From positions 124,001 through 188,000 of the forward strand of contig NZ_NFJL01000004.1 in the NCBI RefSeq assembly GCF_002159835.1: a stretch of 64,000 nucleotides of DNA. The letters are read 5' to 3'. Of the stretch, positions 38,630 through 49,809 are shown one piece after another (the first letter of the stretch is position 1; each line of letters begins with the position of its first letter). Under the pieces are notes generated by a model. The model searched no databases. It was not told the origin of the DNA and was given only the letters and a program-made list of their open reading frames with translations. The translations under genes were made by a program, and so were the position numbers. The DNA comes from Blautia sp. An249. GTDB lineage: Bacteria; Bacillota; Clostridia; Lachnospirales; Lachnospiraceae.

Positions 38630-41600
38630 TTATTCAAACAAACTCATCTGATGTCCATATTCTTCCGGCTTTTTCCTTCCGGCCTTTTCCCGGTGCAGAA
38701 TTTCTTCTGACAGCCCTGCCAAAAACGGGGATTCCTCTTTGGCTCCTGTCAGAATCAGTTCCTCCTTGGCTCTGGTCATTCCCACATAGAGAAGCCGTCG
38801 CTCTTCCTCAACATCGATCTCCTCCCTTTTTCTCTCCAGGGGAATTTTCCCTTTCTCTGCACCGTAAATGACAACCACCGGAAACTCTTTCCCTTTGGCT
38901 CCGTGAAGAGTCGTCAGAGTTACCGCATCGGCCGCATATTCCTTTTTCGGACACCGCTTCAAATCACTTTCCGTTCCCAGAACCAGGCTGTTTAGAAATT
39001 CCTTCATCGTCTTATAGAAGACGGCCGTCTCTTTTAACTGACGGACTGCTTCCTGCTCCTGAAGCTCCATGGTCTCCATCCACAGCTCCATAAACTTCTG
39101 GGGCTTCTTCTTTTGCCATGGACTCAGAAACTGCTCCCTGGCTGTCTGTAAAACCTGTTCCGCCATAGAATCTTCCTCCAGATTCCACAGCAGTCTGGCT
39201 GCCTGTTCTTTTGCATAAGAATTTTCCGGCTCTTCCAGATAACGGAAGAAGCAGATGCTTCCTCTGACCTTCTCATCCTGCAGAAAGTCATCCCTTCCTG
39301 CAACCACATAGGGAATCCCCTCCTGCTTCAGACATCGCTCCAGCAAGTCTGCCTGACGGTGGGTCCGGTAGAGAACGGCGATTTCTCCGAATCCCCGCAC
39401 CTTTCTGTCCTGAAACTTCCAGGCTCTCTCCTGGGCTTCCAGCATTCCCATTCCGCCCACCAGCCGGTTGATTTCCTTTGCTGTAAAGACGGCGGCGGCA
39501 AACTCATCTGCCGTGTGCACCATTCTTACCGGTTCCCCCTCTTCCCGATTCCCATGCAAAAGGCGTTCCCCACCCGGGTTTTGAGAAATCACTTCAGCGC
39601 CCGCTCTTAAAATCCGGGGCGAACAACGGTAATTCTCCTTTAGCCGAATCCGGTGCATATCCGGAAAATCCCGGGCAAGTTTCCGGAAACATTCAGCATC
39701 AGAACCCCGAAAACCATAAATGGCCTGATCCGGGTCTCCGATTGCAAATATTTCTCTGCCGACTTTATTCCATTCTTTTATCAGTTCATATTGAACAGGA
39801 TTTACATCCTGAAATTCATCCACCAGCAGGTAAGTAAACGGCTGTCTCCAGTCGTCCCTTTCCTTAAGGCTGCGGGTTAGTTTCAGGGTCTCCAGTAAAA
39901 GCCCGTCAAAGTCCAGCAGATTTCTCTCCTTCAGATACTGTTCATAGGCTTTTACAGCCTTTTCCCAGGTTTCCTCCGCTGCTTCCGGCTCCTTTCCGCA
40001 GGCTGTCCGGGCGCGCCGCTCCAGAAACTCTTTAGGAGTAAGGTTCCCTTCCCATCCGGCCAGAACTTCTCTGGCTGCTTCTTTTGCCTCTTCCTGATCC
40101 AGGAGGGTAAACTCCCTTCCCCGGGCTTTTAAAAAGTCCAGACAGATTTTATGGAAGGTTCCCACCTGTATTGTCCGAAGAGAACGTTTCTTCCCCAGTT
40201 TTCTTTCCAGTCGTTCTCTGATCTCTCCGGCTGCCTGGTTGGTAAAGGTAACGGCTGTAATCATGGAGGGCTTTACCTTTCTGTTTTCCAGCAAATAGCA
40301 AAGGTGGGAAATCAAGGTCTGGGTCTTCCCTGTGCCGGGTCCGGCAATCACGGCAATCCCTCTTTCCTGGGCACGGACTGCTTCCATCTGCTCTTCATTA
40401 AAGCAAATCTCTTTCTCTTCCTTTGTTTCTTTCGGAGTTGCCTTTGGGGAGGAAACGGGCAGTTCCCTGGTCTTCGCCTTTTCTTCCCTCCGGGAGGGCG
40501 TATCAAGCAGGCTGAAGAAATCCATCTGGCCTTCCAGGTTATTTAATTCCCCGGATCCAAAAAAGCGAATGGTTCCGTACTCCCCGTCGAAGCCTGGAAT
40601 TCTCTCCACCTTTCCCTCCCGCAGTCTCTGGATTCCCTCTCCGATCAGATGGCCTGCCACAGAGGCAATTTCTTCCGTGGGAATTGTTCTTAGAATCTCA
40701 AATTCCGGGCCCAGTTTCTTTAACATCCCTTCGTATTCCTTCTGCACCGCCTTGCTGGACGGGGCATGTCCCACAGCGGATCCGATAATTTCCGGAAGGG
40801 GCACCAGACTTTCAAAGGCTTTTGCATCTTTTTTCTCATACCCTTCCTCTCTGTCTGCAAGCTGCTCCACCCGGTGAGATACCCCTATGGTAATCTTCCT
40901 TCCGCAGACAGGACAGATTCCCTGATATTTCTCTGTCTGGGAAGGCGTCAGACACAGGTTGCATTTTCTGTGCCCGTCCATATGATATTTCCCCTCTTCC
41001 GGGAAAAACTCTATGGTTCCGTAAAGTCCTTTTCCTTTCTGAATGGCCTCATAAAGCCCCTGATAAGACATTTCTATATCCAGCAGATTGGCTTCTCTTC
41101 CCAGCTTCGCCGGAGAATGGGCATCGGAATTGGAAATCAGATGGAACTTATCCAGGGCCGATACTCTCCAGTTCATAGGGGGATCGGAAGACAGACCCGT
41201 TTCCACTGCATGAATGTACGGGGTTAAATCTTCGAAACATTCTTCTGCCGAATCGAATCCGGAAAAGGCTCCGAACATGGAGAAATGAGGCGTCCAGATA
41301 TGAGCCGGCACATAGATCCCCTCCGGGCTTATATCCAGCATAATTTCCAGAAGATCCCGGCAGTCCAGTCCCAAAATGGGACGTCCGTCTGAGTGAATGT
41401 TCCCCACATTCTCTAACTTCCCGGAAACTTTCTGTGCCTCTTCAAGTCCGGGCAGGAGAAGAAGGCTGTGAACCTTTCTCACCCGGCCGTTTTTCTTATA
41501 AATGGAACTGATTTCTCCAGTAATTACAAACCGGGGCCGGAAACTGTCTGTAACGGACGCATCCCGGATGCGGTATTCTTCTTTTAACACATAAAGCCCA

Positions 41601-41779
41601 TCCTCCGCAGGTTCAAGCTTTTCTTTCAGCTCTTCCCTCCACTGAGGATGGGTAAAATCACCGCTTCCCACAAGATGAATGCCCTTTTTTCGCGCCCATA
41701 AATCCAGATACTCCGGCGTACAGTCTTTACTGGTTGCGCGGGAGTACCTGGAATGGATATGTAAATCTGCAATATACAT
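38630..41779 (-). CDS. EndoQ-like PHP endonuclease fused to a UvrD/PcrA-type helicase
   Basis: 1049 residues. Residues 1 to about 430 resemble endonuclease Q (PHP domain): metal motif DLHIHSRYS at 4-12, GSGDFTHPQW, SNSDAHSPAKLG, and a zinc knuckle CNLC...CPVCGR near 275-295. EndoQ cuts DNA at deaminated bases. A charged linker follows (about 435-465). Residues 470-1040 form an SF1A helicase: Walker A AGPGTGKTQTL, Walker B LLVDEFQDVNPVQ, GDPDQAIYGFRGSD, ENYRCSPRI, TLTTLHGAKGKEFPVVVI, LLYVGMTRAKEELIL. The protein would couple lesion incision with unwinding. Separate EndoQ and UvrD proteins exist elsewhere; here both are one chain. Confidence 0.9.
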   Translation of the reverse strand: MYIADLHIHSRYSRATSKDCTPEYLDLWARKKGIHLVGSGDFTHPQWREELKEKLEPAEDGLYVLKEEYRIRDASVTDSFRPRFVITGEISSIYKKNGRVRKVHSLLLLPGLEEAQKVSGKLENVGNIHSDGRPILGLDCRDLLEIMLDISPEGIYVPAHIWTPHFSMFGAFSGFDSAEECFEDLTPYIHAVETGLSSDPPMNWRVSALDKFHLISNSDAHSPAKLGREANLLDIEMSYQGLYEAIQKGKGLYGTIEFFPEEGKYHMDGHRKCNLCLTPSQTEKYQGICPVCGRKITIGVSHRVEQLADREEGYEKKDAKAFESLVPLPEIIGSAVGHAPSSKAVQKEYEGMLKKLGPEFEILRTIPTEEIASVAGHLIGEGIQRLREGKVERIPGFDGEYGTIRFFGSGELNNLEGQMDFFSLLDTPSRREEKAKTRELPVSSPKATPKETKEEKEICFNEEQMEAVRAQERGIAVIAGPGTGKTQTLISHLCYLLENRKVKPSMITAVTFTNQAAGEIRERLERKLGKKRSLRTIQVGTFHKICLDFLKARGREFTLLDQEEAKEAAREVLAGWEGNLTPKEFLERRARTACGKEPEAAEETWEKAVKAYEQYLKERNLLDFDGLLLETLKLTRSLKERDDWRQPFTYLLVDEFQDVNPVQYELIKEWNKVGREIFAIGDPDQAIYGFRGSDAECFRKLARDFPDMHRIRLKENYRCSPRILRAGAEVISQNPGGERLLHGNREEGEPVRMVHTADEFAAAVFTAKEINRLVGGMGMLEAQERAWKFQDRKVRGFGEIAVLYRTHRQADLLERCLKQEGIPYVVAGRDDFLQDEKVRGSICFFRYLEEPENSYAKEQAARLLWNLEEDSMAEQVLQTAREQFLSPWQKKKPQKFMELWMETMELQEQEAVRQLKETAVFYKTMKEFLNSLVLGTESDLKRCPKKEYAADAVTLTTLHGAKGKEFPVVVIYGAEKGKIPLERKREEIDVEEERRLLYVGMTRAKEELILTGAKEESPFLAGLSEEILHREKAGRKKPEEYGHQMSLFE

Positions 41780-41845: not shown

Positions 41846-43234
41846 CTATCTCTCAACTGCTGCCCGATAGATTTTATCCAGTTCTCTGCGTTTTTCTTTT
41901 TCTAACTCATACTCCCCGGGCTCCTTTAAGATGTCCAGGCAGATTTCCTTTAAGATGTCTTCTGCGCCTTTCTCTCCTGTCTGCATCCATTTCTGCAGGG
42001 TTTCCTTTGGGGAAAAGGCCCTGGATTTTACATACTCGCCGTAATCGTCCAGACTTCGGTCGCTTCCCACAAATCCCCGCTGAATCCCTTCTCTCATTTC
42101 TTCCAGAAACGTACTTTCCATGCAATCTGCTACCGTTCCGTCGCAGATCTGCTGGGCGAAGGAAATAGCCTCCAAATCCTGAATCATACAAAGGGGATCA
42201 AACAGTTCGTCCAGACTTAAAGTTCCCACGCAATAAAAACGCTTCGCTCCGTACAGAGCTCCTGCCATAATCATCATTCCCTTTTCCATTCCGGTTCTGC
42301 CGTCTGCAGACTTGCCCCAGGTGTGAATGTTCGTGCTGGAGTAGTCCGGTTCTTCCTCATGAATGTATGCAGCCAGCTCGGCGGCCATTCTCTCCATCAG
42401 AAACTTTTCCGGACTTCCGAAAGCGATATTAAAATCCCGGAAATCAAAGGGAAACAGATTGGCCCGTATTTCTCCGGAAAGTCCGGTGAGGGCTTCTGTT
42501 AAGACGGCGCCTCCCGCCACTTCTGCCAGCGCAGCGGCAAAACCCATAGACAAATTCATCGGGGTAGTCACACCCAGGTTCGGCATGGCAAAGGTATAGA
42601 AAGAATCCAGTCGTTCCTTATTTTCCAGTACGATTTCCAGGGAATCGCCCCCGTAGGTTAAAGGACTAATCATATACACAGGAAGATGTTTCATGGGTTG
42701 TCCCATGACCTGACTCATCTCAAAGAGATATTCCGCTGCCTTTAAAGAATCCGGAGCCAGCGGCCAGCAGCGGGAACAATTCTCTGCTGCGATTTTATAT
42801 CTGGCCAGGGAAGACAGTTCTTTTGGCACATCACAGGGATACCCGGGAATTACCGGATTCAGAGGATACCTCTTACTGGCCTTCTCCACAAAGGCGGCAT
42901 ATTCTCCCAGACTTTCCATGGTATATTCTTTGATCTTTCTATCCTGTACATCCCGGTACTGGTAAGTATACAGACTGGCTTCCCCGTGAAGGCGGTTTCC
43001 ATGCTTATCTTTGGGCGTTTTTATCTTCTTCTGCTTTTCCATAAACTCTTCATAAAGTTTCCGCTCTATGAAAGCCCTGTGATCCTTCATGGTGATTCCC
43101 GGACAATGTTCCAGATGTTCTTCTGACTTTTTGTCAGTTACCTTAATCCCAATCTCTTCCAGCACCTTCCCGGCGCCTTCTGTTATCTTTTCGGCCTGTT
43201 CCCGGCTCAGATACATTCCTTCCCAGTTCTTCAT
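41846..43234 (-). CDS. MttB-family (non-pyrrolysine) methyltransferase-like protein
   Basis: 462 residues of the trimethylamine methyltransferase (MttB) superfamily, TIM barrel. Opening GMYLSREQAEKITEGAGKVLEEIGIKV and the AMPNLGVTTPMNLSMGFAAALAEVAGG region fit the family. It has no in-frame amber codon, so it belongs to the non-Pyl branch, which demethylates betaines or related quaternary amines by moving a methyl group to a corrinoid protein. No corrinoid protein or activase gene lies in the window. Its ATG overlaps the stop of the SIS gene (ATGA), so it belongs to the sugar ABC operon. Confidence 0.85.
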   Translation of the reverse strand: MKNWEGMYLSREQAEKITEGAGKVLEEIGIKVTDKKSEEHLEHCPGITMKDHRAFIERKLYEEFMEKQKKIKTPKDKHGNRLHGEASLYTYQYRDVQDRKIKEYTMESLGEYAAFVEKASKRYPLNPVIPGYPCDVPKELSSLARYKIAAENCSRCWPLAPDSLKAAEYLFEMSQVMGQPMKHLPVYMISPLTYGGDSLEIVLENKERLDSFYTFAMPNLGVTTPMNLSMGFAAALAEVAGGAVLTEALTGLSGEIRANLFPFDFRDFNIAFGSPEKFLMERMAAELAAYIHEEEPDYSSTNIHTWGKSADGRTGMEKGMMIMAGALYGAKRFYCVGTLSLDELFDPLCMIQDLEAISFAQQICDGTVADCMESTFLEEMREGIQRGFVGSDRSLDDYGEYVKSRAFSPKETLQKWMQTGEKGAEDILKEICLDILKEPGEYELEKEKRRELDKIYRAAVER

Positions 43235-44280
43235 GCTTCCTTTCTCCCGTCATAGTCTTTTACTACTTTTGATAAATAGCGAAATCCGTCTACTTCCAGT
43301 CCTTTCCTTCTCGCTGTCTGTTCCGCCAGAAGCTGAAGAGGAACCAGGAAATAAAGGGGAGCAAAACATTCTTCCCCCGCGTCTTCAATAAGAATCCTGT
43401 GTTCCGTACAGGGATGACAATACTTGCCGCAGTCTGTAATCAGATAGATGTCTGCGCCGATATTTTCCAGAAACCGGATATGTGTCTGCGTCTCCCGGGC
43501 CTGTTTCCCGCCGGAAGCCAGAAACAGCACGGGCAGCCCCTTCTCCGTCACTTCCAAGGTTCCATGGCGGAAGTCTCCGATACTTGATCCCATGGTATGA
43601 AGAAAGGTTTTCTCCTGCATCATCAGCGCTCCTTCGATTGCCGCTGCTCCCAGCAGTCCCGCCCCCAGGATGTAGAAGTTTTCCTTTGTCAGCAGGGTAT
43701 TGACCAGAAGATCCAGACCGGTATCTGCCTGCTTCAGTGTCTTTTCCAGTTTCTCTGGTATTTCATAAAATTTCTGCTGATATTCTTCCTTCCATCCAAA
43801 GGCTAAGATTGTCAGAAGAAGAACGGTAGCCAGGTTGGTTTTTGTAGCGGAGCTTACCTCCTGTTCACAGTACAGAGGAAGAACCTCCGAAGCGTTTCTT
43901 CCCAGAGAGGAGTCCGGCTCATTGGTGATTCCCCACAGTTCTGCTCCCGTCTCTTTGACCTTTTCTCCATAAAGTTTTGTCTCAATGCTTTCCCCGGACT
44001 GGGATACAAAAATCACCAGTGTCTCCCGGTCAAAGGAGGGAAGCAGATACGGCAGATCTTCTGCCGGAGTTACCAGAGGCTTTAACCCGCTGTGAAGATA
44101 GAATGCATATTTCGCCATCTGGCAGGCATAAAGAGAAGCTCCCATTCCCGTAAGTACCAGTTGTCTTTTCTCCGTTAGTTTCTGATGATAAAGCTTCGCC
44201 TTCGGCAGATATTCCTCCAGCAGTCTTTTTGCCACCTGGGGCTGATCGTGGATTTCTTTCCACATTTGTGTGTTTTCCAT
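43231..44280 (-). CDS. SIS-domain protein, FrlB/GlmS-isomerase-like
   Basis: 349 residues with two SIS domains (LTGMGASLYACQMAKYAFY at about 43, FVSQSGESIETKLYGEKV at about 90, and ILGAGLLGAAAIEGALMMQEK near 210). The end, GLEVDGFRYLSKVVKDY, follows the pattern of the GlmS isomerase tail. The family includes sugar-phosphate isomerases and fructoselysine-6-phosphate deglycase. With a PfkB kinase and a sugar ABC transporter in the same operon, an amine-sugar phosphate deglycase or isomerase is likely. Confidence 0.85.
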   Translation of the reverse strand: MENTQMWKEIHDQPQVAKRLLEEYLPKAKLYHQKLTEKRQLVLTGMGASLYACQMAKYAFYLHSGLKPLVTPAEDLPYLLPSFDRETLVIFVSQSGESIETKLYGEKVKETGAELWGITNEPDSSLGRNASEVLPLYCEQEVSSATKTNLATVLLLTILAFGWKEEYQQKFYEIPEKLEKTLKQADTGLDLLVNTLLTKENFYILGAGLLGAAAIEGALMMQEKTFLHTMGSSIGDFRHGTLEVTEKGLPVLFLASGGKQARETQTHIRFLENIGADIYLITDCGKYCHPCTEHRILIEDAGEECFAPLYFLVPLQLLAEQTARRKGLEVDGFRYLSKVVKDYDGRKEA

Positions 44281-44302
44281 GGTTACCTCCTCTTTCTATT
44301 TT

Positions 44303-45142
44303 CTATCCTTTCACCGAACCTGTGGTTAATCCCTTTGTTAAATATTTCTGGAAACAGATATAAAGGAGTACAGACGGCACCATGACAATGTTTAACCCGG
44401 CAAAGAGGGTTACCCAGTCTGCCTTTAACTTAAAGGATTCCATTAATGCAATAATCCCCACCGGCAGCGTCTGCAGTTCCTTATCCTGTAAAAAGGTCAG
44501 TGCAAAAATGTAATCGTTCCAAATCCAGACAAAATTAAAAATCACAATGGTGATAACTCCGTTTTTCGACAGAGGGAAAATCACCTTCCAAAAGGCCTTA
44601 TGGGCCGTACATCCGTCTATGGCTGCCGCTTCTTCCAGTTCTTTGGGCATACTTTTGTAAAATCCGCTCATAATCAGAATGGAATAGGGCAGGCTGAACA
44701 CCACGTATAAAATTACCAGACCGATTCGGGTATTCCAAAGGTGCAGATCATACATCACCGTGAATTCCGATGGCAGAATCAAAGATGTGGGTACGTACAG
44801 GCCTGCGATAAACAGCATCAGAAGGGCCTCCCCCCATTTCTTCTGTGTTCTGACCAGAAGATAAGCCACTGTACTGGAGAGAATCACCACCAGAAAAACG
44901 GAAATCAGTGTAATCACAATACTGTTTAAAGTATACGTCTGAAAGTCGATTTTCACCCATGCGTTCACATAGTTTTCCAACTGCCATTTTTTCGGCAGAG
45001 CCCATGGGTTTGCCACAAATTCCCCGTTCGTCTTAAAAGAAGTATAAATAACCCAGAATACAGGGAATAAAATCGCAAGCCCATAAAGCCCTGAAAATAA
45101 ATCTCTGACCGCGCCTCCTGCTTTCACTTTCTTTCTATTCAT
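44303..45142 (-). CDS. Carbohydrate ABC transporter permease (CUT1), second subunit
   Basis: 279 residues, six helices, MalG-like. EAA motif EELEEAAAIDGCTAHKAFWKVIFPL. Overlaps the preceding permease by 8 bp. No ATP-binding subunit is encoded in the operon; a shared ATPase such as MsmK probably serves it. Confidence 0.93.
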   Translation of the reverse strand: MNRKKVKAGGAVRDLFSGLYGLAILFPVFWVIYTSFKTNGEFVANPWALPKKWQLENYVNAWVKIDFQTYTLNSIVITLISVFLVVILSSTVAYLLVRTQKKWGEALLMLFIAGLYVPTSLILPSEFTVMYDLHLWNTRIGLVILYVVFSLPYSILIMSGFYKSMPKELEEAAAIDGCTAHKAFWKVIFPLSKNGVITIVIFNFVWIWNDYIFALTFLQDKELQTLPVGIIALMESFKLKADWVTLFAGLNIVMVPSVLLYICFQKYLTKGLTTGSVKG

Positions 45143-46028
45143 CTCGATACCCCGCTTTCATACCCTTCATAATGATAAAAATAATCAGGAACAATACTGC
45201 AAACAGCAATACGCCGATAGCGGAGGCATACCCATAATCGCTGTAAGTAAACGCATGCTCGTACAGATAGGTGGTCAGAAGCTCTGAGGCCCGGTTAGGT
45301 CCTCCTTTTGTCATAACGTACACCAGTTCAAAGGAATAATTAAAAGCGGTCACACAGAAGAACACCAGAGAAGTCCTGATTTCCTGCCAGATTCCCGGAA
45401 TGGTCACATGCCAGAACTGCTGCCGCTTATTGGCTCCGTCAATAGCCGCCGCTTCGTAGCAGTCCTCTGAGATATTTAAAATGGCTGCAATAAACATCAC
45501 CATATAAAACCCCACATTAATCCAGACCAGAGGCACAACCAGGGCGCCCATAATCACGTCCGACTCTCCCAGCCAGACATGCTGCAGAGCGGACAAGCCG
45601 ACTTTTTCTAAAAATCCGTTTACCAGTCCAAAGGACGGATTGTAGATAAAGGTCCATAACACAGCCACCACAGCAATGGACATTACATATGGAATAAAGT
45701 AAATAATCCGAAGCCCCTTGTGGTATCTTCTCCTGCTTTTGGTCACCATGACTGCAAAAGCAAGGGCCAGAGTGAAGGTAAAGAGAGTGCAGAAGACTAA
45801 GATGAACAGATTGTTTCCCAGCGCCTTCCACACAATGGGATCTTTTACCAGTCTGCGGAAGTTTTCCAGTCCCACGAAGGTAATCTCATCAGAGAACCCG
45901 CTCCAGCTGCATAAGCTCAGAAAAAGGGATTTGAGACACGGATAAACGCAGAACACTCCGTAAATGATTAGGGTCGGTATTAAATATAGAATAATCAGGC
46001 TCTTTTTCTTTCCAGTCACTTTACTCAC
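45135..46028 (-). CDS. Carbohydrate ABC transporter permease (CUT1), first subunit
   Basis: 297 residues, six helices, MalF-like; GTG start. EAA motif EDCYEAAAIDGANKRQQFWHVTIPGI. Overlaps pfkB-type gene upstream by 8 bp and the second permease downstream by 8 bp. Confidence 0.92.
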   Translation of the reverse strand: MSKVTGKKKSLIILYLIPTLIIYGVFCVYPCLKSLFLSLCSWSGFSDEITFVGLENFRRLVKDPIVWKALGNNLFILVFCTLFTFTLALAFAVMVTKSRRRYHKGLRIIYFIPYVMSIAVVAVLWTFIYNPSFGLVNGFLEKVGLSALQHVWLGESDVIMGALVVPLVWINVGFYMVMFIAAILNISEDCYEAAAIDGANKRQQFWHVTIPGIWQEIRTSLVFFCVTAFNYSFELVYVMTKGGPNRASELLTTYLYEHAFTYSDYGYASAIGVLLFAVLFLIIFIIMKGMKAGYRDE

Positions 46029-47163
46029 CTGTACTTTCTGTCCTTAGAACTTTTTCTTCTTTTACTCTGCCGGGCTCCTCCTGAAGAAAGGCCGCCAACC
46101 GGGAAAGATTCGGGCTTTTGCCGTATCTTACATAATATCCGGAAACGGCATTTCCCAGCTTCAGGCTTTCCTTTAAAGAAAAGCCGTGCAGAAGCCCAAA
46201 GCAAAGCCCGCCGTTAAAATTGTCTCCGCCTCCTGTGGAAATCCTGGGAACGGCCGTATAATACCCTGTCTCAAATTCCAGTCTGCCGTTTTGGTACCCG
46301 TAGGAAGAATCACACAGATGCAGAATAAAGTAATCAATTTTCAGAGCCCGTCCGATGCGTTCCGCCATTTCCTCCATATGTACCGGGTTCTTTAAAAACA
46401 ATGCCTTATAAATCAGCCGGCCCTCATTTTCATTTACACTGAGAATGGTTTTCCGGTATCTGGTTATCTGCTCCTCCAGCTTCAGAATCCTCCTTAATTC
46501 TTCGGAAGTTTTTCTGGATGCATCGGAAATATCCATCAGGAACCAGTTCTGCTCTCTGTCTTCTTTTCCTCCTGCAATGCAGTTTTCATAGACCTTCCCG
46601 AACAGCTCTGTAGCGCCTTCCAGCTCGCTCCAGTTCAGCATGGCGGCAAGCCTGCTGTCCTGGAAATATTCCCGCAGCGTACTCTGAGAAATTCTCCTGG
46701 TCAGGTTCTCCCAGTTCAGTTCTTTTAAAGAGTCCATGGAAGAGAGCATCACCTTTCCGTCATGAAATTCGATGGCGTTACACTGTCCCATTTCACAGAC
46801 CGTATGAATCCGGCAGTTTTCACTTATCTGTTCCATAAGAGGATCTTTCTGAGGGTACCCCATACTTCCAACGCAGTGTATCTGTACTCCAAGAGTTCCC
46901 AGACTGTTGGCAAAGATGGCCATATTTCCGCCGATTTTCTCTTCCTGTATTTCCATTTCCAGAGAACAGCTCATATTTTTCTTAGATACTAAGTATCTCC
47001 CGAATTCTTCGATTGTATGAAAATAACGGGTCTTCCGATCATCGTTCTTCTTTCTTACCAGCCGGACGACTGTATCTTTTACCGCATCAAATCCTACAAC
47101 TGCCCAGACGGAAGAATTCTCAAAAGCGATTCTCTGTAATTTCCGAACAATCTTATTCTCCAC
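46021..47163 (-). CDS. PfkB-family carbohydrate kinase
   Basis: 380 residues, longer than usual, GTG start with AGGAGA upstream. Ribokinase fold: EEKIGGNMAIFANSLGTLG (substrate-binding Gly-Gly), and the C-terminal STGGGDNFNGGLCFG, the anion-hole and catalytic Asp motif. It would phosphorylate the imported sugar or fructosamine; compare FrlD. Substrate unknown. It overlaps the binding-protein gene by 11 bp. Confidence 0.88.
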   Translation of the reverse strand: MENKIVRKLQRIAFENSSVWAVVGFDAVKDTVVRLVRKKNDDRKTRYFHTIEEFGRYLVSKKNMSCSLEMEIQEEKIGGNMAIFANSLGTLGVQIHCVGSMGYPQKDPLMEQISENCRIHTVCEMGQCNAIEFHDGKVMLSSMDSLKELNWENLTRRISQSTLREYFQDSRLAAMLNWSELEGATELFGKVYENCIAGGKEDREQNWFLMDISDASRKTSEELRRILKLEEQITRYRKTILSVNENEGRLIYKALFLKNPVHMEEMAERIGRALKIDYFILHLCDSSYGYQNGRLEFETGYYTAVPRISTGGGDNFNGGLCFGLLHGFSLKESLKLGNAVSGYYVRYGKSPNLSRLAAFLQEEPGRVKEEKVLRTESTGE

Positions 47164-48469
47164 TTTCTATCTCCTGTGCTGTCTGATCCATTCGTTCACA
47201 AAATTCTTCGGCGTTAATCTCTTCCTGTATCAGGGCATTAATACAGTTATTTAATTCCTCTAATACCTCTTTATAACGTACTTTATATGTGGCAGAAAGA
47301 ATGGTCACATTATCATCTGCCATCTCCCACATCGCCTGGGCGCTTTCAGGGAGAGCATTCATCACTTCATCACTCTGTTCTTCCAAAGCCAGCATAAATC
47401 CGGTGTTTTCTGCAACGTATTCGGCATTTTCTTCTGAATAGAACAACTGTACCAGTTCCTTAATGTATTCCAGTTTTTTATCATCTTCCTGTTTCGGCAG
47501 TACCATACACTCCACAACTGCTGTGGAAGACGTCTTTTCACTGTCTTCTCCGGGTGCATACATGGGTGATAACTGGAAATCCTGGGGCCACTGGCCTTCC
47601 ATCTCTCCTTCCAGCCAACTTCCGGACGGAACGAAAGCGTCTTTGTTACCGATAAAGTCAATCTGAGACTGAATGTGATCCATAGCCAGAGAATTCTTAT
47701 CAATATAGCCTGCGTCCCGCATTTCTTCCAGCCGCTGAATTACCTCCAGAACCGCCGGCTGTTTCCAGGCTCCCGGTTCGTTTTGATTAATCGCCTCCAG
47801 AGACTGGGGATCCAGGTTATACATCATGGGCACCAGGAAGGCGTCCGCCAGCATAAAGGGATATACCCCTGCATAAATCATGGGTGTTACGCCGCCGTCT
47901 TTTATCTGTCCGCAAAGTGCAAGATATTCTTCCCAGGTCTTTGGAACTTCCCAGCCCTTTTCCTGGAACAGCTTTCCACTGTAAAAATTGCCTGCGATCA
48001 GTTTACTGGTGGGCAGAAAATAGTGGGAATCTTCGATTTTTCCCATTTCCAGGCCTGCAGAGAAAATAGTTTCTCCCAGGGTCTTCGTTCCTTCTGCATT
48101 CTGTTCCTCTAAGATGTCATCCACAGGATATAAAAGACCTTCCTCTGCAAAACCATAGTAATCCACATCACTAATCCAGCTATAGAAGATGTCCGGCGCC
48201 TCCTGTACATTTAAAAGGTTCCGGATAACTTCAGAGGCCTTGGCATTGCTTTCAAATTCCACTTTCACATCGGGATGGGCCTCCTGAAACTTCTCAAGGG
48301 GAAGATCCCAGAATTGTTCCGACACCTCCTGCTGCCACATAATGGAGATGGTCATCTCTTCAGAATCTCCGCCTTTCGCGGTTTCTCCCTCACTGCTGCT
48401 TCCACCGCATCCTGCCAGGCCAGCCAGCAGTGCGCCTGCACATAAAATTGCTACAACCCTTTTCTTCAT
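47153..48469 (-). CDS. Carbohydrate-binding lipoprotein of an ABC transporter
   Basis: 438 residues with a lipoprotein signal (lipobox LAGC near residue 21) and the family 1 extracellular solute-binding fold (SIMWQQEVSEQFWDL, NVQEAPDIFYSWISDVD). First gene of the operon SBP-PfkB-permease-permease-SIS-MttB. Ligand unknown. Confidence 0.92.
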   Translation of the reverse strand: MKKRVVAILCAGALLAGLAGCGGSSSEGETAKGGDSEEMTISIMWQQEVSEQFWDLPLEKFQEAHPDVKVEFESNAKASEVIRNLLNVQEAPDIFYSWISDVDYYGFAEEGLLYPVDDILEEQNAEGTKTLGETIFSAGLEMGKIEDSHYFLPTSKLIAGNFYSGKLFQEKGWEVPKTWEEYLALCGQIKDGGVTPMIYAGVYPFMLADAFLVPMMYNLDPQSLEAINQNEPGAWKQPAVLEVIQRLEEMRDAGYIDKNSLAMDHIQSQIDFIGNKDAFVPSGSWLEGEMEGQWPQDFQLSPMYAPGEDSEKTSSTAVVECMVLPKQEDDKKLEYIKELVQLFYSEENAEYVAENTGFMLALEEQSDEVMNALPESAQAMWEMADDNVTILSATYKVRYKEVLEELNNCINALIQEEINAEEFCERMDQTAQEIESGE

Positions 48470-48553: not shown

Positions 48554-49720
48554 CTAGATGGGCATCCACTTGGAAAAAACCATTTCCGACGCGCCTTTTA
48601 CCATAGTCGTACTGCTTTCCTCGTCCAGATAAATCTGAGGAAGATCTTCCTCTGCCACCAGCATTCTGGTTTTCATCTCCTCAATACTGGTCTGCAGGCA
48701 GATTTTTAACGTTTCCGTAGTTCCTCCCCCGATTAAAATACAATCCGGATTAAACATGTTATTTAAAATCGAAAGCAGCCGGCCGAAAATTTCTCCATTC
48801 TCTGTCAGTACTTTCCCGGCCTCTGGATCCTTTTCTTTTATCAGATTCAGAAATTCGCCATAGGACTTAAGCTCTTTTCCTGCGTACAGCCGGTATTTCT
48901 CCACATACCCCTGAATCCGCAGATCACTTTCCACACATCCGTAATTCCCGCATAGATGACATTTCATCTGAGGATTGCCAATGGGCATATGACAGATTTC
49001 CGGCGCATACCCCCGGGATCCGCAAATCAGGTTTCCGTTGGCAACCACTCCGATTCCGAGACCTTCATCTGCAAAGATATAAATCAGATTTTCCTGCTCC
49101 TGCCCGTGTCGTTTCTGCATATATTCCGACAATACGCACAGGTTGGATTCGTTATCCACATAAACGGTTTTCTTTAAAGCCTCCGACAGCATTTCTTTCA
49201 TCGGCTGATTGTTAAACATCTCAATCTCCGAAGATACAATGTGATGGGTTTTCTTCTCGAAAATTCCGGGAACTGCCACGCCGACCCCAATGATCTGCCA
49301 TTCCTGAAAGGTATCCAGCACCTGTTCTTCGTATATCTCCCTGCAGAGATTCACAATCGCTTCCACATCACAGTCTTTTTCATAAGCAAATTTCTCGTCA
49401 AAAACCATCTGGTTCCCATAGTCCAGCACGCAGACACGAATCCACCCAAATCTGGTCAGATCCAGGCAAAGGGAAAGCAGGTTTTCGTACTGGATGGAAA
49501 TGGTTTTGGGTGTTCTTCCCACAACCTTCGTATCTTCTTTTGCTTCTTCCTGGATATAGCCTTTTTCCCTCATCTCATTACAGATATTGGAGACCGTAGC
49601 AAAACTTAAATTTAATTCTTCAGCCATGACTTTTTTCGTCACTCGTTTTTCTTTTCTTAAATAATCCATGATCTCTTTTCCATGGACTCTTTTCAATTCA
49701 ACGGAACTGTCTATCTTCAT
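48554..49720 (-). CDS. ROK-family transcriptional regulator
   Basis: 388 residues. An N-terminal winged helix (about 10-65: DYLRKEKRVTKKVMAEELNL, then SFATVSNICNEMREKG) precedes a ROK domain with IFADEGLGIGVVANGNLICG and a zinc-binding CHLCGNYGCVES. ROK repressors sense sugars or sugar phosphates. It lies directly upstream of the SBP-to-MttB operon and is its likely regulator; it also has an operator at its own promoter. Confidence 0.9.
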   Translation of the reverse strand: MKIDSSVELKRVHGKEIMDYLRKEKRVTKKVMAEELNLSFATVSNICNEMREKGYIQEEAKEDTKVVGRTPKTISIQYENLLSLCLDLTRFGWIRVCVLDYGNQMVFDEKFAYEKDCDVEAIVNLCREIYEEQVLDTFQEWQIIGVGVAVPGIFEKKTHHIVSSEIEMFNNQPMKEMLSEALKKTVYVDNESNLCVLSEYMQKRHGQEQENLIYIFADEGLGIGVVANGNLICGSRGYAPEICHMPIGNPQMKCHLCGNYGCVESDLRIQGYVEKYRLYAGKELKSYGEFLNLIKEKDPEAGKVLTENGEIFGRLLSILNNMFNPDCILIGGGTTETLKICLQTSIEEMKTRMLVAEEDLPQIYLDEESSTTMVKGASEMVFSKWMPI

Positions 49721-49759
49721 TTTGTATTCCCCTCTATTATTTTATCTATTATTTTAATA

Positions 49760-49809
49760 ATTATTTTAATGGCTAAAATAATAGTATATAATTCTGCTCC
49801 CTATGTCAA
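49760..49809 (-). promoter_or_regulatory. ROK gene promoter and palindromic operator
   Basis: Minus strand TTGACA (49804-49809), 17 bp, TACTAT (49781-49786). The palindrome ATTATTTTA-5-TAAAATAAT (49760-49782) covers the start point, and two further TAAAATAAT half-sites follow towards the gene. This looks like ROK autoregulation. Confidence 0.7.

Follow-up and report, generated by a model that had tools for sequence, protein, structure and literature searches.

A stretch of 64,000 nucleotides from the genome of Blautia sp. An249 (contig NZ_NFJL01000004.1, positions 124,001 to 188,000; hereafter the window) carries on its minus strand a compact set of seven genes in which a divergent member of the MttB superfamily is encoded together with a regulator, a sugar importer, a sugar kinase and a SIS-domain protein. 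We propose, tentatively and at somewhat short of an even chance, that this set is an operon for the breakdown of an amino sugar bearing one or more N-methyl groups, which would be imported, phosphorylated, demethylated and deaminated. More tentative still is the wider reading that the MttB-like protein belongs to a new corrinoid-dependent subfamily of demethylases for N-methylated amino sugars, free or phosphorylated, allowing gut anaerobes to direct the sugar carbon to glycolysis and the methyl groups to one-carbon metabolism. We infer the demethylation, the order of the steps and the substrate from what follows.

All six open reading frames (ORFs) reported in the initial annotation were recovered exactly at 41846-48469, and the Pfam matches and spacing agree with its description of six genes with overlapping or nearly contiguous ends beside a ROK regulator. 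In the direction of transcription, the gene for the ROK/NagC-like regulator (48554..49720, minus strand; ROK, 132 bits) is followed after 84 nt, on the same strand, by genes for a substrate-binding lipoprotein (SBP; 47153..48469; SBP_bac_1, 72 bits; called as a lipoprotein from its N-terminus by eye), a PfkB-superfamily kinase of 380 amino acids (aa) (46021..47163; Khk, 126 bits, and PfkB, 28 bits), two sugar ABC permeases (45135..46028 and 44303..45142; between them, BPD_transp_1 matches of 77 and 55 bits), a SIS protein of 349 aa (43231..44280; 106 bits) and the MttB-like protein of 462 aa (41846..43234; PF06253, 63.1 bits). The best NCBIfam model was UgpA for the first permease and GlcU, followed by UgpE and MalG, for the second, all below their cut-offs. 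Overlaps of 11, 8, 8 and 4 nt join SBP to kinase, kinase to permease, permease to permease and SIS to MttB, and the only gap among these six genes, between the second permease and SIS, is 22 nt.

The order ROK, SBP, kinase, permease, permease, SIS, MttB is the same in the window and in loci from two other genera, those of Lactonifactor longoviformis DSM 17459 and "Clostridia bacterium isolate C2". The flanking genes differ between the three, so the arrangement is not a chance one, and the MttB-like gene is linked to the transporter genes in both of these near relatives. Gene overlaps in the Lactonifactor locus are nearly equal to those of the window; in the isolate C2 locus, the kinase and SBP genes share 35 nt (for the start chosen) and the ATG of the MttB-like gene lies 51 nt past the SIS stop. 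Both loci were the hits of a scan with two peptide patterns over one genome per species (84,980 species), an approach that misses distant relatives.

Upstream of the ROK gene lies a promoter-like site, TTGACA-N17-TACTAT (49781..49809, minus strand), which is identical in the Lactonifactor locus and reads TTGACA-N17-TAATAT in that of isolate C2. It scores 10/12 and is among the two best matches of the region. The promoter scan as a whole returned 14 sites against 11.7 (sd 3.5) in shuffled sequence, no excess, and the argument for the site is therefore its conservation in three loci. Directly 3' of the -10 element in all three loci are repeated (T)TAAAATAAT boxes (49736..49769, minus strand, in the window), and A/T-rich boxes of the type TTAAAATAAT follow the promoter-like site in each; these may form the operator of the ROK regulator. 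A 22-base box pattern, derived from this same sequence, had a mean count of 0.00 over 100 shuffled versions of the window. As the ROK gene is co-directional with the other six and preceded by the conserved promoter-like site, it probably belongs to the operon as its first gene, a place it also takes in the two related loci. One seven-gene transcript is likely, and the single operon of the initial annotation is upheld at that strength. The Lactonifactor locus also has, upstream of the ROK promoter, a perfect inverted repeat with 22-base arms (L013:3238-3281); the same stretch of the window and of the isolate C2 locus is without it.

By sequence, the MttB-like protein is a member of the MttB superfamily, since its PF06253 score exceeds the cut-off of 25 bits and a profile-profile comparison with seven ordinary MttB homologues matches at prob 99.9 over 454 columns, its whole length. 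The match named in the initial annotation is thus real, though weak for the family: 63 bits as against 303-492 bits for the other five MttB paralogues that this genome encodes, with a TIGR02369 score of 85 against a cut-off of 525. In the PDB, a profile of the clade found MttB (7xcm/7xcl; 7xcm at E 1.3e-23), MtgB (9yce/2qne; E about 1e-14) and 4yyc (E 2e-9), and no other structure at E 0.001. A pyrrolysine-containing MttB was considered and rejected, as the frame is open and has no in-frame stop (TAG).

Six members of this clade were found in all. A branch with support of 100/100 in an unrooted tree separates them from the seven ordinary homologues, five of which come from the genome of the window itself and one of which (L030) is a row cut by a contig end. 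With these same comparators, pairwise identities are 33-66% within the clade (15 pairs), 22-34% among the ordinary homologues (21 pairs) and 13-21% between the groups (42 pairs). A PF06253 search at E 1e-8 of 24 other genomes of the same genus gave three matches, of 70 to 263 bits, in two of them. One of these matches, L036, groups with the ordinary MttB proteins; L035, which contains an in-frame TAG, and L037, which is partial, were excluded from the tree and identity table. The 512-codon frame of L035 (G1088:C15), an MttB homologue, holds a single in-frame TAG, and it may be a pyrrolysine MttB in this genus.

In MttB itself, the C-terminal region and the dimerization loop of the neighboring subunit contact the corrinoid protein, Thr111 and Gly372 contact the corrin, and Tyr364 assists catalysis (PMC9842639). 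The whole-length match of the clade includes this C-terminal region, where the alignment to MttB has gaps of one or two residues only. In the same remote, hand-counted alignment, in which the pairing of residues is uncertain, Tyr364 corresponds to Y334, a Tyr in four of the six clade members, while Gly110, Thr111 and Gly372 are replaced by L88, Y89 and D342, so that both corrin-contact residues are changed; D342 is invariant across the six rows. Pyrrolysine 334 falls on the invariant H304 in the profile alignment and on N302 in a single-sequence alignment, and Ile-His-Thr (303-305), at or beside the pyrrolysine site, is invariant in all six.

These changes, the separate branch with its low identity to ordinary homologues, the sugar genes found in every one of the six loci and the lack of a corrinoid-type gene in all six (by TIGR02370 search; the closest that shares a contig with its locus is 94 kb off, in G013, one of the two near relatives) would suit an unlikely alternative. 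The protein may no longer be a methyltransferase, its TIM barrel having been re-used, for example, for an isomerase, epimerase or lyase step in the degradation of an unmethylated amino sugar or glycoside. The match across the corrinoid-contacting region and the Tyr364 equivalent argue against such a change of function, and so does the machinery encoded elsewhere in the carrier genomes. Matches to RACo_C_ter are present in 6/6 carriers, each with a best E of at most 1.9e-76, and RACo occurs in 163 of 391 genomes of the class (E 1e-40); treating the carriers as independent draws, which is not quite true of them, gives six of six a probability of 0.005, uncorrected for relatedness or genome size. 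TIGR02370 matches are likewise found in all six carriers. This model also picks up long frames such as those of 803 aa in G304 and 1257 aa in G696, which are probably methionine synthase, and gives matches in 9 of 14 control genomes, yet every carrier keeps at least one match when frames are restricted to <260 aa and >90 bits, the weakest being that of G696 (255 aa, 94 bits). That all six carriers have genes of both types, corrinoid and RACo, supports methyl transfer without proving it, and we take the MttB-like protein as a putative methyltransferase.

The initial annotation had placed the corrinoid partner outside the operon, and a candidate gene is present on another contig. The genome of the window encodes three stand-alone TIGR02370-like corrinoid proteins, all below the 215-bit cut-off, on contigs C55 (two) and C1. 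On C55, a corrinoid protein gene lies 12 nt from a gene for a pterin-binding methyltransferase (Pterin_bind), and the pair has the arrangement of a shared corrinoid/tetrahydrofolate methyltransferase pair. Five ordinary MttB homologues are encoded in this genome, on contigs C33, C14, C66, C1 and C9; the one on C33 adjoins a BCCT transporter gene and the one on C1 adjoins a corrinoid gene. From its gene content, the organism looks equipped to demethylate several amines.

The SIS protein resembles the isomerase part of GlmS and the type II NagB (NagB-II) deaminases. Among NCBIfam models it scores 177 and 160 bits with GlmS (cut-offs 381 and 418), 78 with NagB-II (430) and 31 with FrlB (430), with a further SIS score of 53 against a cut-off of 580. 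A SIS profile (A2) matches GlmS structure 1moq at 135 bits. In its alignment, 16 GlmS-type rows extend to position 340, in the C-terminal tail, and 3fj1, a putative phosphosugar isomerase, extends to 342, as against only 290 for NagB-II 8eol and 281 for 3fkj. The phosphate loop SQSGES is S93-S98, and by hand count E. coli GlmS E488, H504 and K603, which we take to be the catalytic Glu, His and Lys positions, correspond to E223, H239 and K338. The protein may thus be a stand-alone amino-sugar-6-phosphate deaminase. The kinase belongs with the Pfam Khk (prokaryotic ketohexokinase) family PF25270 (126.4 bits against a cut-off of 35) and has no NCBIfam match to FrlD (NF007321) up to E 0.01; it would phosphorylate the imported sugar. 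An AlphaFold model of it had a mean pLDDT of 55 and a pTM of 0.57.

These assignments bear on the reading put forward in the initial annotation, that an amine-sugar conjugate (an Amadori or Heyns product) is taken up, the kinase and a SIS deglycase free a methylated amine from it, and the MttB-like protein demethylates that amine. Its outline of fructoselysine (Frl) catabolism stands as far as the set of components goes, which equals that of Bacillus subtilis frlBONMD (PMC12632257), and MttB-superfamily members do use free quaternary amines (PMC8604678); a GlmS-like SIS protein could also act on 2-amino (Heyns) conjugates. The individual proteins do not follow this outline: with 31 bits to FrlB as against 160-177 to GlmS, and a Khk-like kinase lacking a FrlD match, membership in the Frl system was rejected. 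Because the SIS protein and kinase are not of the Frl type and two distant clade members lie near NagB-type genes, a methylated nitrogen of the sugar itself would fit better than a separate methylated amine glycated by the sugar. We consider uptake of such a conjugate distinctly improbable.

The binding protein is NgcE-like, of the N-acetylglucosamine (GlcNAc)/diacetylchitobiose family (TIGR03851, 189 bits, cut-off 400), and the regulator resembles NagC (96 bits, cut-off 650). An NgcE-like binding protein would also suit an imported amino sugar that carries phosphocholine or a different quaternary amine, decorations of the kind seen on bacterial surface glycans, with the MttB-like protein demethylating the choline part and the remaining genes using the sugar. 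The MttB homologue MthB does demethylate phosphocholine; it has its own linked corrinoid protein for the purpose (PMC12155760). As genes for a phosphodiesterase, choline kinase or choline transporter are none of them among the seven, we regard this version as very improbable.

Under the preferred reading, catabolism of an N-methylated amino sugar, the NgcE-like lipoprotein and the two permeases would import the sugar, powered by an ATPase encoded elsewhere, and the Khk/PfkB kinase would phosphorylate it, at C6 if the later steps are right. Next, the MttB-like protein would strip off a methyl group and load it onto a corrinoid protein whose gene lies elsewhere, and a pterin-dependent methyltransferase would hand it on from there to tetrahydrofolate. 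Finally, the GlmS/NagB-II-like SIS protein would deaminate or isomerise the amino-sugar phosphate, yielding fructose-6-phosphate and ammonia or an amine, with the operon under control of the ROK regulator. A quaternary nitrogen on C2 is barred from imine chemistry, so the demethylase would have to precede the deaminase. In this order, the MttB-like enzyme would occupy the place held in GlcNAc catabolism by the deacetylase NagA, and no NagA-type deacetylase was found among the seven genes by Pfam scan. Uptake, phosphorylation, N-demethylation and deamination make up the simplest account in which every gene has a part. N-methylated amino sugars occur in nature: TMG-chitotriomycin, whose synthesis has been published, contains trimethylglucosamine.

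Besides the altered corrin contacts and the missing linked corrinoid gene, several observations weigh against this pathway. The NagB, SIS, NgcE and NagC matches are all below their NCBIfam cut-offs; GlmS K485 is M220 in the SIS protein, and the SIS protein of G304, one of the distant clade genomes, has Tyr at the H504 position. The Pfam Khk family presumably rests on the characterised haloarchaeal ketohexokinases. Those enzymes yield fructose-1-phosphate (PMC11519228), a product that a C6-type SIS enzyme would not use, which counts against the scheme in its simple C6 form. For the MttB-like protein, AlphaFold gave an unusable model from a three-row alignment (mean pLDDT 38, pTM 0.29). The clade is also a small sample of six, three of them close (the window and the Lactonifactor and isolate C2 loci), and the count of SIS or NagB-like genes in the same gene run in five loci and nearby in the sixth comes without a base rate of such neighbors for a random gene. 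Finally, no gut N-methylated amino sugar was found identified in the titles and abstract openings of part of the open-licence literature.

The distant members were found with profiles. Of 299 family genomes, three encode the MttB-like protein, that of the window included (E 1e-30), and the same three and no others have the SIS protein (SIS profile, E 1e-70). A profile of the MttB-like clade matched 3 of 391 class genomes, namely that of the window, G304 and G645 (E 1e-25); G304 and G696 among 32 genomes of the family to which G304 belongs; G645 alone among 13 genomes of its family; and only the genome of the window among 398 of the phylum. These samples overlap and the E-value limits differ between them. 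The clade is rare and patchy, which suggests its horizontal spread. Carriage on plasmids was considered and dropped, as a plasmid collection gave no match at E 1e-20.

In G304 (a contig of 5,299 bases), the C-terminal part of a SIS gene, a ROK gene, a shortened SBP gene (239 aa) and the MttB-like gene lie on one strand. In G696 (7,827 bases), the MttB-like gene, cut by the contig start, is followed in a row by genes for a GH4 glycosidase, a BadF-type kinase and a NagB-like protein. In G645, the MttB-like gene precedes genes for a BglX-like GH3 protein and a 355-aa protein, and a divergent cluster comprises a regulator (LacI-type by eye), SBP and permease genes. The NagB-like gene of G645 (168 bits, below cut-off) is 3.5 kb away, convergent and outside the MttB operon, which again weighs against the proposed pathway. 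Of the transporter genes linked to MttB in the near relatives, G304 has the shortened SBP gene next to it and G645 the SBP and permease genes of the divergent cluster; the G696 locus is cut by the contig end.

The 355-aa protein of G645 (L018:6534-7601) had been labeled URO-D by eye, a label dropped because it has no match in Pfam (E up to 1), NCBIfam (0.01) or the PDB (1). The URO-D fold includes corrinoid methyltransferases. In G304, the interval that separates the shortened SBP gene from the MttB-like gene (about L017:2600-2840) encodes a 78-aa fragment resembling a URO-D C-terminus (15.4 bits, E 0.0097); the match is below cut-off and was not used as evidence. This interval may mark a deletion or an assembly joint. 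Just downstream of the operon in the window, an ORF of 1049 aa (38630-41779, minus strand) has, by eye, PHP-type phosphoesterase and UvrD-type helicase parts, and neither near relative has a counterpart at that position.

If correct, the proposal would matter in two respects. The MttB superfamily contains thousands of proteins (PMC8604678), and in 2025 MthB was counted as only the sixth member with a defined physiological substrate; the substrates described are trimethylamine, carboxylated quaternary amines and phosphocholine (PMC12155760). A clade of six members, all among sugar genes, would extend MttB enzymes to carbohydrates. It would also name a testable class of substrates and suggest that N-methylated amino sugars serve as nutrients in the gut, a role not found in the open-licence titles and abstract openings covered. 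The operon hints at an undescribed route for consuming such sugars. An MttB homologue inside an amino-sugar operon was likewise not found in the part of the open-licence literature covered, at the level of titles and abstract openings.

The proposed pathway borrows from choline metabolism and from GlcNAc catabolism. In the choline pathway of Eubacterium limosum, demethylation by the MttB homologue MthB comes after phosphorylation of choline by MthK (PMC12155760), and here too a kinase would make an acidic substrate for an MttB homologue. The differences lie in the PfkB-type sugar kinase, the ABC sugar importer, the amino-sugar-deaminase-like SIS protein and the lack of a linked corrinoid protein. 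With NagB-II, GlmD and the GlmS isomerase domain, the SIS protein shares sequence similarity, the SQSGES loop and the E488/H504/K603 equivalents, but it falls below the NCBIfam cut-offs, has no glutaminase domain and is accompanied by no NagA among the seven genes. B. subtilis frlBONMD likewise combines a SIS protein, a PfkB-superfamily kinase, an SBP and two permeases (PMC12632257), whereas here the SIS protein and kinase are closer to other families and an MttB-like protein and a ROK regulator are added. With the non-pyrrolysine MttB quaternary-amine methyltransferases (MtgB, MtpB, MtcB, MtyB and MthB), the MttB-like protein shares a profile match over its whole length, and its corrinoid partner may be encoded elsewhere, on the model of E. 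limosum MtqC, which MtpB, MtcB and MtyB have in common (PMC8604678). It differs from these enzymes in its separate branch, its identity of 13-21%, its changed corrin-contact positions and its place in a sugar operon.

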